Below, piece by piece: positions 12,134 through 21,700 of a stretch of DNA of 64,000 bases; within the stretch, counting starts at the first letter, position 1, and every line of letters starts with the position of its first letter. The DNA lies in contig NZ_CABHMS010000002.1 in NCBI RefSeq assembly GCF_902167635.1, forward strand, positions 310,001 to 374,000, read 5' to 3'. The stretch comes from Chitinophaga vietnamensis (GTDB taxonomy: Bacteria; Bacteroidota; Bacteroidia; Chitinophagales; Chitinophagaceae). The notes beneath the pieces are model-generated. The model was not told the DNA's origin. It made no database searches and saw only the letters and a list, made by a program, of their open reading frames with translations. Position numbers and translations under genes: made by a program.

Positions 12134-13144
12134 TTAAAGCACCGACACCTCCACCACCGATAACCTGCTATTCAGCTGCGCGAGTATGCGGCTATCTTTG
12201 AATATCTTCTTTGCCTGGTAATACAGCAGAATATCTTTCTCTACAAACAGGATTTCATTTAACTCAAGTTCCTGTTGCAGGTGCTGCTGTTCCTGGTCTG
12301 CATCTGGCTTGGTGTCCATTTGCCGGTAGGCCGCCACGGTGATCTCTTTTGAGATCTTGTCCTTGATTTTCTCCTGTTCTTCTTCCGACAGCTTCGCAAT
12401 GATCTTTTTTGATTGCGCGATCAGCGGAAGGAAATCTTTGACGGCTGCGGGCTGTTCTGTTTCCAGGTCATAGGTGACATTCACTGTTTTGTTTTGTAAG
12501 ATATTGATCTTGCCTTTGAGCATGCTGCCTTCCAGGTGCGGGGCGGAAATAAAATCGTCCGGCAGGGCAACGGGCTGCGCCGCCGCCACGGGGGCGGATG
12601 GCGTGAAATGGAACAGTTCCTCCAACTGTTTTTTATGGGCTTCGTTGTTGGAGACAAAATAGAGGATCTCTTCATTGTTATCTACCAGCACAAAACTCTT
12701 GTAGCTGTCGTTGATCCATACTTTGAACGGATAATCCACATCTTTACAGAACAGTTCAAAATGTTCCCTTAAAATGGGGTATACGTCAAACCCTTTGTGG
12801 CGGAGGCTATGCGCGGATTGCGCAAAGAGGTATTGCGACAGCTCCGTTAATAAAATGATAGACGATGTGGCAAAGTATAATACCGGTTTGTTCTTTTTGA
12901 TAAAATACAAAGGAGGATCTTCTTTATGGAAGTCCGCTTTTTTTATGAGGAACTGCTGTTGTTCTTTTTTATAGAAAGATAGATAGATACCGTCTTTGTC
13001 TGTCCTTGTGTGAACGAATGATGGCAGGGATGCCAATACTGCAATGCTTTTCGGCGCTTCCGCAGGCTGTGCAGGGGAAAGGGACTGATCAAATATCTGC
13101 AACAGTTTCGTCAGTTTGTCTGTATATTCTTTGTACGGTATCAT
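12134..13144 (-). CDS. Candidate immunity protein for the Rhs toxin
   Basis: A 336-residue protein whose ATG lies one base after the Rhs stop (TGATATG), so it is translated coupled to the toxin. No signal peptide, which suits neutralising a toxin acting in the cytoplasm. The C-terminal part (about 205-336: MLKGKINILQNKTVNVTYDLE, KIKDKISKEITVAAYRQMD, LELNEILFVEKDILLYY) resembles the DUF2262 fold as I remember it; the N-terminal 200 residues look like a separate alpha/beta domain I do not recognise. Position, length and absence of export make an immunity role likely, but a chaperone/adaptor role is possible. Confidence 0.6.
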   Translation of the reverse strand: MIPYKEYTDKLTKLLQIFDQSLSPAQPAEAPKSIAVLASLPSFVHTRTDKDGIYLSFYKKEQQQFLIKKADFHKEDPPLYFIKKNKPVLYFATSSIILLTELSQYLFAQSAHSLRHKGFDVYPILREHFELFCKDVDYPFKVWINDSYKSFVLVDNNEEILYFVSNNEAHKKQLEELFHFTPSAPVAAAQPVALPDDFISAPHLEGSMLKGKINILQNKTVNVTYDLETEQPAAVKDFLPLIAQSKKIIAKLSEEEQEKIKDKISKEITVAAYRQMDTKPDADQEQQHLQQELELNEILFVEKDILLYYQAKKIFKDSRILAQLNSRLSVVEVSVL

Positions 13145-13145
13145 A

Positions 13146-16100
13146 TCAATTACATTTTATCTTGGTCCTTCTGCCTGTTTCCATGTTGTATTTGTATTTC
13201 GCTTTCACCTTGCCTCTCAGGCTTTCTGTCTGGATGAGGTGCTTGTCGCTGATCCTTTCCCAATGATAGGTTCTGCGGGTAGAGGTAGCGTAGTAGCTGG
13301 CGGTAACTTTATTGGCCATCACGAATTTCCTGATGGCGGGCTGACAGCCAGGCCGGCAAGGATTCAGGCGGCCCCGCATCTGCAGGTGATCGCCGGGTTT
13401 TACGATATCGTTTGCATCCGAGAGGAACTTGCGTTCGGTGTGCGTAAGCAGCGCTTGTTGCTGGTTCGGCGCGCCTTGCCCGGTAAACATGCCTCCACTC
13501 GTATAGTTCTTGCTATGGATCGTATCCGTGCCCCGGATGATCTGGCCGCTTAGCCCGTGTGGCGCAAGCCCCAATATATCTACCCAGGCATTGGGATCGT
13601 GCACATAAGCATAGAAGGCCAATCCGCCGCCAAGGCCTATCGGGTCCTGGCTGATGTAGATGCCTTCCTGCGGACTGTAATACCTGAAACGGTTGTAGTA
13701 CAAACCGGTTTCAATGTCCTCATATTGCCCCTGGTAGCGGAACGGCACAAAATCTTTCGGGCCTTCCAAATTACGGACATTCCCATAAATATCCAATTCA
13801 CAGGCCCATACACGTTCGCCATTTTCATCGTAGGCTTCGCAGGGCGTGCCGAGATGATCGGTGATCACCGAGTAGGCGTGCCCGTTATATATCTTCGCTG
13901 CCAGTATGGAGCTGTCGCCCTCAAACACCCAGGTGGTAAGGGTTTCACGGGGTACTGGTTCGGGATGGCTTTGCTGTATCTCGCCATTTTCATCGATGGT
14001 GATATGCGGCCGGTCTTTTTCCGGGTAGCTCCATTCGTGCAAGGGGGTATCGCCATTCCAGAGGTAGCGGGTAACCTGTCCGTTGAAAGTCTTTTCTATC
14101 CTGCGTCCGATGGCATCATAGCGGAACTGCACTATCTTCTGGTCGGGACGGCGCACCTGTTTCAGCAGGCCGTTGCCATACCATTCATATTCATAAGTGA
14201 CCGGAGAAGTAGAGGTGCTTACAATTTTCCGGATAAGATTTCCCTCCTCGTCATAGACGAACCTTGCGGAATCGCTTTCCTGTAAACGCCCGCCGGCGGC
14301 GTATTTGCGGTCGTTGCGGAGCTTGGTGCGATAGAGGTTGCCGGCCTTGTCGGGCAAGCGGTAATCGTAGTCGCCGTTTTCGTATTGCGCCCAGGCGAGA
14401 TTGCTGAAGGCGTCGTAGCCGAACTGGCGCGTGCCGCGGTGGAGCTGATCGATCACCTGTTTGAGCTGCTGGTTGGCATCCCAGCGGTAATGGCGGCTTC
14501 GTTTGATGTTACTGCCACTGCTCACGGTATGTGTAGCCGGCGTGCCGCTTTCAGCGCTGCCGGCAGCATAGGTCCAGGCGCTTCTGATGCCGCCGGGCAG
14601 GGTACGCGCTATTTCCAGGCCGAGCAGGTTGTGTTGTATCTCTGCACGCCAGGGCTGCGCGCGGCCGGTGCCGGCGGTGATGGTGCTGAGGTCGCCTGTC
14701 AGGCTCCATTGGTGTTGGGTGTCTGCACCCAGACTGCTTTTCAGTGATATGCGTTCGCCATCGCTGTTATAAGTGCTGCTGATGGCGTAGTCGTCCTGTA
14801 TTTCGTGGAGAAGGCGGCCCATGTTGTCGCGCTCCATCCGGATGCTGCCATGCTGGTTGCTGGCTTCTATCAGGAGGTCGGCGCCATTGTACGTATAGGC
14901 GTCCCAGGTACCATCGCTGTGTTCTATGCGGGTAACGAGATGGCTGGCATTGTATTCAAAGGAAGTCCATTTGCCGCCGGGGCGGTGCACTTTGAGCACA
15001 TTGCCGTTGCTGTCCAGCTCAAAGTGACGGGTGATGCCATCGAAGCCGGTTTCGGAAATGATATCGCCGTTGGCGTTGCGGGTAAAGCGATAACTTTCAC
15101 CATGTTCATTCACCACGCCGGTGAGCTGCTCATCGCGGTTGTAGAGGAAATGCACTTTCACGCCGTTCTCTTCGCGGTACTGCATGCTGCCCAGCGGCGT
15201 ATAGCCGAAGCGTACCTGGTAATGTTTATCGGTAACAGCGGTGATATCGTCGTAAGCATCGTATTGTAAAGTGACCTGGTTGCCATCGGGCAGGCTGATT
15301 CCGATGACGCGGCCCAGCGCATCAACCCGGAAGTATTGCTGCTCGCCGGCAGGGTTACGCAGTTGGAGGCAATTGCCCCAGGCGTCGTACTGCCAGCTGG
15401 ATTCGCTGCCATCGGGCAATTGCATGCTGCTGATGTTGCCGTCTTCATCATAATGAAAAAGGGTGAGATGTTCTCTCTCATCTTCTATCTTGCTCAACAG
15501 GTTTTTATCATTATACCGGAAGATGGTGATATGGCCGGCGCTATCGGTGAGCGTGTGCAACAGGCCATTGTCGTAATACGTGTAGGTGCGGCTGTTGCCG
15601 TCTGCTTCGGCACGACTGATCAATTGTCCTTTATCGTTGAAGCCGGAGACGCTCTCCGAGCCATCAGCAGCGGTGATGGTGGTGCAATTGCCCATTTCGT
15701 CATACGTATAGCCGGTAACGTTACCTTCCGCATCGATCTCCCGGTATACTTCCATCTCATCAGTATATTGGTAGAAGATGGAATTGCCCATCGGCTCTTT
15801 GATCTGCGTTACCACAAAATCGGGTGTATAATAATAGGTGGTGGTATGGCCTTGCGCGTTGGTGATGCGGTTGAAGCCTTCCCTGGGATGGTATTCCAGG
15901 AAGCCCTCCAGCAGGCCGTTGTCGCCGGTGGTATGGATACAGCGCCCTTGTTTATCGTAGTTCCAGTAGAAGCTGTTGCCGTTGCGGTCTGTTTTCTTTA
16001 ACATGAGGTGATCACGGTAATGGATATACGTTGTTTTACCCAATGCGTCGGTGATGCCGCTAAGGTCGCCATCTTCATTATAAGTATAGCTTACCATCAG

Positions 16101-17504: not shown

Positions 17505-20500
17505 ATGTCTTTGTACACCACGACCTCAGTGACAATTGGCGATCATGTCTTTTCTTCTTTTCAGTCGTTAAAGATAGATCAGCGCATTCACGACCACCAT
17601 CAGTTTGAACTACTCATCAGCTACGATTGGTTTAACCGCATTGGTAAGGGGCTTTTTGCCGCCGGCAAGGAGTTTCTGGGCAAAGAGGCTCATATTTCCA
17701 TCACGCCGGTACTGCCGGGTACAGGCTATGATCCGCTTGTTTTTAATGGCATCGTTACCAGTGTTCATGCCGGAAAAGAATGCGATGGCACGCATGGTTT
17801 CTGCATCATCAGGGGGAGCAGTCCTACCGTGTTGCTGGAGAATGATCCGCATATCTGCACTTTTGAATCGCAGTCCCTGGCGGATATCGTATCTGCCACC
17901 GTGAAACTGGCGGAGCCCTTCTGCCGTAACAATACCATCTCTCCATCTGATAACGTCCAGCTTAAATATACCGTGCAGTATAAAGAAACGGCCTATGACT
18001 TTCTGCGTCGCCTGGCGAGAAGGCATGGGGAGTGGTTCTTTTATGACGGGCAACAGCTGGTGTTTGGCAGGTATACGCCGCGAAAGGTAGTGCTGACGCA
18101 TCTCACCGACCTGCTCGACTTTGACCTGGCTTTGCATGTAAAACCGAACAATGCCACCCTTAATGGTTTCGATTACCGGCAGGATGCCGTAAGCGGCAAC
18201 CATACCGGCCGGCCGGCGGAAGGCAGCATGAACAGCTATTCCCGTCATGCGGCGGATATCAGCCGGAAACTATACCGCAAGCCATCTTTGTACAAAATGG
18301 ATTATCCCTTTGGCAGTAACCTGCGCCAGCAGGTCGATAAGCAATCGGAGCTGCAATACAAAGGCCGCCTGGCTACCATGGTAACGCTGAAAGGCACGAG
18401 CAAGCACAGTAGCCTGCGTATAGGCGATACCGTAGGTATCAGGGAGCAATTCCTTGGCAGCGCTGATCATGGCGAATATGTCATCACCCAGCTCACGCAT
18501 ACCTGCACCAGCAGCGGCGAATACCGTAATACCTTTGAAGGCATCCCGGCGGATGTGGCCATGCCCGAGGTAGCGGTAGACGCGCATCCCCTCTGCGAGC
18601 CGCAGAGCGCCCTGGTGGTGGACAATAACGACCCGCGCGGCTTAGGCCGCGTAAAAGTGGCCTTCCGCTGGCAGGAGCAGGGCAGCACGCCCTGGCTGCG
18701 CATCGTAGCGCCGCATGGCGGAGGCAACAAAGGCTTTTATTTTGTGCCGGAGATAGGGGAAGAAGTGTGGGTCGACTTTGAAGGCGGCAACCCCGAAACC
18801 CCTATTGTGATCGGCGCCACCTATAACGGTAACGCACCTGCGAATATCGGCGATGAACGTAACAACGTAAAGGCCATCCGTACCCGCAGCGGCCACACGC
18901 TCGAGTTCAATGATGCGGGCAGCGGCACGCACCTCATCATCCGCGACCCCGGCGGCAACGAGATCTTCCTCGACACCGCCGGAAAAAATATCACCATCAC
19001 CGCCCCCGAAACCATGACCTTCCAGGCGCGCAACATGAACATCAGTGTAGCGCAGCATATGGAAGTGAACGTAGGGCGTAATACCATGATGAGCAGCGGG
19101 CAACAATTTATGGTAAATGCCGGACAGCAGTTACTCATGAACACGCCATTCCTCCAACAGATGGCCACTTCCTTCATGCACCTGCAATCCGCCAAAACCT
19201 TGATCAACTCCGGCAATGAGATCAAGATAGAATCGCCGAAACTCTTTGCTGCCGGCGCCAGTCAGCTCATGCTGCACAGCGATGAGAAGATCACCGCCAA
19301 CAGTAAAGGCACCCTGCACCTGAAAGGACAGGAAGGCAACAAGCATAGCAACAAAGCAGAATCTTACGAAACCGTGAAGCCCGTCATCGATGCAAAATGT
19401 ATCGTCAGCTTCCGCCCCGGCAGCAGCTGGCAGGGAGAAGGCTATGGTATCGACTGGATGCGCAATGGCGATACCGGCAAAGGCGGCGATATCTTATACG
19501 AAACCAGCATGGGCAAATATTATCTTGATGCTGCCTTCACACAGGTGAACCGCGACATCAACAGTGATACGCCCTACCAGAAGCCCGATGATGCGATGTA
19601 CGATCGTCTCAAATCAAAATATCACGTGCATAGCATCCCCTGGAAAACAAAAATGAAAAATGGCAAAGAGGTGCCGGAAGAATATTTCGTGGCCTGGCTT
19701 AGCCTCTATCCCAAATCCGTAAAAGCCACCAAAGCGGTGCTGTCGCTGGATGTGGAGGTGAAGGAAGAACCCGAATGCCTGAAGTTTGAAGACAATGAGC
19801 ATTTCACTATTACGCCGAAGGAGATCTCCTCCAAATCTGTCGGTAATCACAAGCTGCCGGATTTTGTAACGATAGAATGTATCAAAGAATTTAAAACGGA
19901 CCAGACGATCAAAGTACTGGCGGTAACGAAAGGCCCGGATGGTAAGGAATCCACGGCAATAGCCGGCAAGATATGCGTGTGGGCCAACGATGCTACCAGG
20001 CGGAAAAAGAAGAATATCCTGCTGGTAGAAGTGACCACTTCTCTCAACGGTAATACCGTATCCGGCAGTGCGGCAGGGCAGGAGGACCTCTTCCGTCATT
20101 CACTTAACCAGGCTTATATTGATCCGCATGTGGAGACGACTACGCTCAACCTCTCCGCAGATGCGTATTTCAACAGCAATTATACAAGTGGTGCAAATAT
20201 TGTATCTTTCGATGATAGCAAATCCACGAAGGATATGTCGGAATACCTGAACAGTGTATTGAAGAAGATACCAGGCTTTGGTACAAAGTACGATCACTAT
20301 TTTAAGGCCTTCTATCTTGGCGGCAGCGGTGGTGCGATGGAGAGCGGGCAGATGAAGTTGCTGAACGGTTATTCACTGGGCGATAAGGTAGTGTTGTTTA
20401 AAAGTGCGATTGCTTCCACGCCGGCGCATGAATTTCTGCACTCCCTGAAGCTCCCGCATACCTTCACCAATGCGGAAGCGGATGCCAATGCCCTGTTCAC

Positions 20501-21361: not shown

Positions 21362-21700
21362 ATGCCGCATATCGTTACAGAAACGGCGCAATTGCGCTGC
21401 GACAAAGGAGCGGCGCCCGCTTCACTGAAGGTGACCAGCCAGCATTATTCCTGTTACGACGACAAGCCCATTGCCACAGAGCAGGACAAAGCGCCGGAAG
21501 CGAACATCCCTTCTTTCGGTACCTGCATGATCACCCGCTCACGTTGTACGCCCGCACCACTGGCCTGGGACAGCCCCGCAGAAAAAGAAGAGATCGACGG
21601 CATGCGGGTGCTGTTGTTATGCAGCACTTGCAAATGCGCTGTGGGCGGTACTATCAGCATAGCGGACAAAGGGCATTCGTGTGATGCGGACATCCAGTGA
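21362..21700 (+). CDS. DUF4280 PAAR-like tip protein
   Basis: A 112-residue cysteine-rich protein matching the DUF4280 (PAAR-like) family: TETAQLRCDKGAAPASLKV at the start, then FGTCMITRSRCTP, and VLLLCSTCKCAVGGTISIADKGH at the end. Members cap VgrG spikes in Bacteroidota T6SS (subtype iii), sharpening the tip and docking effectors. The conserved cysteines probably hold the fold or a metal. It begins two bases after the lipoprotein stop, so vgrG, lipoprotein and tip form one operon. Its stop codon is directly followed by the 53-bp inverted repeat. Confidence 0.85.
   Translation: MPHIVTETAQLRCDKGAAPASLKVTSQHYSCYDDKPIATEQDKAPEANIPSFGTCMITRSRCTPAPLAWDSPAEKEEIDGMRVLLLCSTCKCAVGGTISIADKGHSCDADIQ

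Follow-up and report, generated by a model that had tools for sequence, protein, structure and literature searches.

Among described systems, the closest to the toxin studied here is DddB/BaDTF3 from Taylorella equigenitalis (PDB 9k3e and 9pw0-9pw2), a Pput_2613-like deaminase toxin. The passages of PMC7901873 that deal with BaDTF3 place it with Pput_2613 and describe the C-to-T mutations that it causes in E. coli, preferentially at cytosines preceded by T and not at those preceded by G, while activity of DddB on double-stranded DNA is described in the relevant passages of PMC13299692 and in the title of entry 9k3e. We analyzed a stretch of 64,000 nt from Chitinophaga vietnamensis (contig NZ_CABHMS010000002.1, positions 310,001 to 374,000; hereafter, the window), containing an Rhs toxin gene that very probably encodes, in the C-terminal tip of its product, a zinc-dependent base-changing enzyme and a divergent, unannotated relative of DddB (Table 1).

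The deduced Rhs toxin contains RHS, DUF6531 and Rhs_assc_core matches above cut-off (Pfam, NCBIfam). Translation of the reading frame (1378 aa) bore out the preliminary description of this DNA in that a tip of 138 residues (1241-1378) starts directly after the Rhs end, ...WVDILGLA; the coordinates given there for the tip, 13146..13560, are right except that they fall two bases short at the end, because the codon for residue 1241 is at 13560-13562. The tip is single-copy in the genome and, when searched alone at E ≤ 10, matched no family from Pfam or NCBIfam and no PDB sequence. However, a phylum-level whole-genome search retrieved a strong relative with 59% identity to the tip, and a profile made with both sequences revealed relatives encoded by five out of 99 candidate stretches from the species-genome collection; these are from Niabella ginsengisoli, Flavobacterium sp. 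Leaf82, Apibacter adventoris, Clostridium punense and Chryseobacterium cheonjiense, the last one being the first relative again (genome G304, locus L012, same contig and protein sequence). We take the Niabella, Flavobacterium, Apibacter and Chryseobacterium relatives to be from Bacteroidota.

The HTE and PCRPGC motifs reported earlier for the tip were confirmed in their positions and are conserved, as HTE and PC[KR]PGC, in all six aligned members from two phyla, with 24 residues from E1283 to P1308 in the window tip. There are 29 invariant columns among the six members, all of them inside the stretch covered by the partial Apibacter row, for which just the initial piece of an interrupted cassette was used. 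From knowledge of the superfamily, H1281, C1309 and C1313 are presumed zinc ligands and E1283 is the presumed proton shuttle. The spacing of three residues between the cysteines is indeed present, and it lies within the range printed for APOBEC deaminases in the corresponding passage of PMC7760323 (HXE-X25-30-PCX2-4C).

Profile comparisons placed the tip clade next to the Pput_2613-like deaminases (PF14427), one of the toxin families listed as candidates in the preliminary description. PF14427 matches four of the six members (best E 3.6e-6), with Flavobacterium (27.2 bits) and Chryseobacterium (25.9) above its cut-off of 25 bits and Niabella (22.1) and the Apibacter piece (17.2) below it; there was no match at E ≤ 10 for the window tip or for Clostridium. 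The match is marginal, because a genome-level search (E ≤ 0.001) missed both the window's genome and that of the Chryseobacterium relative. PF14427 occurred in 1/296 genomes of a Bacteroidota sample and in 0/299 genomes around Clostridium, although this search is not taken as showing absence. Against PDB, the clade profile ranked 9k3e and 9pw0-9pw2 at the top with E-values that are weak alone (0.011-0.094); the same four chains were matched by a true PF14427 member (L014, 118.2 bits, from Bacteroidota genome G315) at 3.5e-26 to 1.1e-22, which ties BaDTF3 to Pput_2613. A profile-profile comparison of the tip clade with two true PF14427 members gave 97.3% (E 2.7e-11, 55 columns), whereas with a pair of MsddA-like deaminases there was no alignment (0.8%). 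Likewise, HMM scores exceeded those of all shuffles in both directions (21.2 and 19.4 versus 8.3, with 10,000 shuffles; 12.7-22.1 versus 9.9, with 12,000).

A joint alignment with PF14427 members contained 12 columns invariant in the seven rows (S, G, H, T, E, G, D, G, P, C, C, and Y), such that L014 and L021, from a Streptomyces zaomyceticus plasmid, have the SG, THTE, GD, G, PC, C and Y positions in common with the tip clade. The tip thus contains the upstream Ser-Gly and the HxE helix of the Pput_2613 family, whose S, G, H, T and E are among the invariant positions. Conversely, the zinc loop of the tip clade is one residue longer than in the three Pput_2613 members compared: these, L014 and L021 included, have C-x2-C (PCPRC, which is the loop of DddB, PCSSC and PCTRC), whereas the window tip has PCRPGC and its five relatives PC[KR]PGC. 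Because of this C-x3-C we consider the clade as a sister branch, and plain membership in Pput_2613 was discarded for this reason and for the lack of an Imm10 partner, bearing in mind that such partners often accompany these toxins but are not strictly required for family membership. The earlier proposal of a new deaminase branch holds only in part: we found no name for the branch, but the Pput_2613-like lineage, to which it is sister, was already among the candidates.

Other families found less or no support. XOO_2897 appeared below its cut-off in two of the six members (E 0.0021 and 0.059), and profiles for SCP1.201/DddA, YwqJ, MafB19 and BURPS668_1122 were not listed for any of them (Pfam, E ≤ 10). 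There was also no match of the six members to Pfam profiles for DYW deaminases, which include SsdA/BaDTF2, or for AID/APOBEC deaminases, which are eukaryotic and with larger solved chains; MafB19-like, compared as a single HMM target, was absent from the best 12 matches listed. Membership in the DddA, DYW, MsddA-like or MafB19-like groups was therefore rejected for lack of profile support. Deaminase domains of MsddA-like (PF24174) and MafB19-like (PF14437) toxins do occur in loci of the same kind, close to the relatives' tips: MsddA-like domains are near the clade's tip in the Rhs cassette arrays of two relatives (L009 3190-4017 and L010 3799-4176), and in Niabella the tip and its presumed immunity genes have a MafB19-like deaminase ORF (L008 6943-7305) downstream.

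The predicted structure of the tip comes close to the order of elements inferred in the preliminary description, with a beta-hairpin, two helices around HTE (tip residues 34-40 and 42-51), a strand (59-64) and, after PCRPGC (68-73), a helix (73-84), two strands and then three more strands. The predicted succession of strands (E) and helices (H), E E H H E H E E, together with HxE and PCxnC motifs in 6/6 members, corresponds to the core of the zinc-dependent deaminase superfamily. The best solved match for this model was DddB/BaDTF3 (VIA-align), in support, along with the profiles, of the deaminase assignment first proposed. Identity with DddB is 22% over the aligned part, which ends at tip residue 105; beyond it, the window tip adds a basic extension of 33 residues with three predicted strands, whereas the Streptomyces L021 ORF stops around 12 residues past the YVWDG strand and has an Imm10 gene after it.

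We consider it likely that the tip is a toxin with zinc-dependent nucleic-acid deaminase activity, from a divergent branch beside the Pput_2613-like lineage, that is delivered by a type VI secretion system (T6SS), converts DNA cytosine to uracil and is counteracted by a downstream immunity protein. The Rhs shell would carry the tip through the T6SS into a neighboring bacterium, where a zinc ion would be held by H1281, C1309 and C1313, with E1283 activating the water molecule that takes the place of the cytosine amino group; the resulting uracils would damage or mutate the genome of the rival, while the gene starting one base downstream would encode the protective protein. DNA cytosine is the most likely substrate because BaDTF3 mutates E. 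coli DNA and DddB acts on double-stranded DNA. It is unlikely that the physiological substrate of such a deaminase is instead RNA or free nucleotides, in view of the fact that the nearest relative by sequence and fold is a DNA deaminase and that, in the passages of PMC7901873 cited above, the tested BaDTF3 member mutates DNA.

Poor prediction of the loop with C1309 (pLDDT below 50 for tip residues 68-71, P1308 to P1311) would agree with a deaminase-like fold that is in fact a zinc-binding nuclease or an inactive remnant, but the presumed catalytic positions are invariant in 6/6 members from two phyla, which argues against decay, and the nearest solved relative is a deaminase, making this explanation very improbable. 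Likewise, the lack of a direct Pfam or NCBIfam match for the tip could suggest that HxE and PCxxxC occur by chance in a domain of unrelated activity. However, even a permissive form of the pattern (HxE and PC separated by 15-45 residues, with C after 2-4 more) appeared in just 35 of 200,000 tip shuffles, and a fortuitous origin is contradicted by motif invariance, the profile comparison and the fold match, so we rejected it as barely conceivable.

The presumed immunity gene (P0003) had one match in Pfam (E 0.055) and two in NCBIfam (E 0.016 and 0.09), all below cut-offs, and at E ≤ 0.01 its only match in the genome was itself. The Flavobacterium gene at the equivalent position shows 30% identity along its length (E 2e-51), whereas only the C-terminal half of P0003 has a counterpart in Chryseobacterium (BLASTP, E 4e-14) and Apibacter (by alignment only). 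In Niabella, the N-terminal half (E 4e-11) and an ORF resembling the C-terminal half (by alignment only) are separate genes (L008 5445-5999 and 6037-6345). These split ORFs and lone C-terminal halves suggest that the presumed immunity protein belongs to a modular two-domain family, and P0003 probably protects the owner of the toxin. The Clostridium tip is instead followed by a SUKH-like gene (L011 5430-6068; matches below cut-offs, best E 5e-4), so that one toxin clade apparently has two kinds of immunity. Imm10, listed as a partner of Pput_2613 deaminases in the relevant passage of PMC3482391, did not match P0003 in Pfam (E ≤ 10) or the Clostridium partner. Incidentally, the Apibacter tip (L010 4995-5423) is in an orphan Rhs cassette whose reading frame is interrupted; after it comes a 143-aa immunity-like ORF.

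The tip clade looks rare in the genomes sampled. Besides the copy in the window, whole-genome searches gave matches in 1/293 other genomes of the family, 5/394 of the phylum and 1/394 of the class, of which only the Chryseobacterium relative is real, being the same in the phylum and class samples. Of the weak matches, L002, L005 and L006 were dropped because they overlap other ordinary-looking ORFs (judged by eye), and L004 and L007 because of internal stops and their E-values. A first scan of the species-genome collection, with the tip alone, gave 0/24, and a Bacillota-centered search around Clostridium recovered 1/299 genomes, that of C. punense itself. Plasmids and phages (E ≤ 1) contained no relative of the window tip, nor plasmids any of the Flavobacterium tip; viral contigs contained none in two scans with the tip clade or with the Pput_2613 pair.

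The surroundings of the toxin gene are consistent with delivery by a T6SS, with an Rhs core, a variable tip, a neighboring VgrG and, in the same genome, a TssC gene (PF17541, 776.9 bits); among the parts of the secretion machine the analysis covered TssC, which a TIGR03355 search of the genome did not find. PF17541 presumably marks the Bacteroidota type of TssC, and we take the DUF4280 protein to be PAAR-like. At residue 975 of the VgrG-type protein, within a long C-terminal extension, there is a sequence HEFLHSLKLPH (window 20427-20459), which to us resembles a metzincin-type zinc-peptidase motif; no peptidase family was found in Pfam at E ≤ 0.1, and the protein possibly carries a second effector.

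Table 1. Features around the Rhs toxin gene, with positions relative to the first nucleotide of the window.
Feature	Position	Strand	Remarks
Rhs polymorphic toxin, 1378 aa	13146..17282	-	DUF6531, RHS repeats, RHS protein motif, Rhs-associated core, then tip
C-terminal tip, residues 1241-1378, probable deaminase-fold toxin domain	13146..13562	-	Conservation, profiles, predicted fold
HTE motif, residues 1281-1283	13434..13442	-	Invariant in 6/6 aligned members; codons H1281 13440-13442, E1283 13434-13436
PCRPGC motif, residues 1308-1313, C-x3-C	13344..13361	-	PC[KR]PGC in 6/6 aligned members; codons C1309 13356-13358, C1313 13344-13346
Basic C-terminal extension, tip residues 106-138	13149..13247	-	Predicted strands E108-115, E118-126, E132-135; beyond DddB-aligned part
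Presumed immunity gene (P0003), 336 aa	12134..13144	-	Start codon 1 base after toxin stop codon
Presumed immunity protein, C-terminal half, residues 204-336	12137..12535	-	Stands alone in two relatives
VgrG-type spike protein, 1037 aa	17505..20618	+	Phage_base_V, Phage_GPD above cut-off; divergent from Rhs gene
DUF4280 protein, possibly in same secretion gene group	21362..21700	+	Same strand as VgrG, further on

Neither the deaminase fold nor the Rhs toxin plan is new, and the C-x3-C spacing falls within the printed APOBEC range. What appears to be new is a branch largely missed by Pfam, with the longer zinc loop, the extra C-terminal strands and the modular immunity family. No description of a C-x3-C branch was found in the literature passages covering BaDTF3, Pput_2613 and DddB; the "DddB" in the passage from PMC9935910 is that work's own label, Ddd_Bc, and that from PMC11754093 concerns APOBEC-like domains, so that neither bears on the branch. 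Tentatively, the C-x3-C loop and the basic beta extension might set this clade apart in function, as a deaminase whose substrate or sequence context differs from that of DddB (e.g., context-free double-stranded DNA, or RNA), and with an immunity fold yet to be described, although we lean against this possibility.

In the passages of PMC13299692, DddB is reported for use in mitochondrial genome editing as a deaminase acting on double-stranded DNA, and a compact branch largely missed by family databases would enlarge the set of natural candidates for editing. Additionally, the altered zinc loop and the extra C-terminal strands would offer a natural comparison for the determinants of substrate and context, and the locus would add a family of immunity proteins with separable halves.
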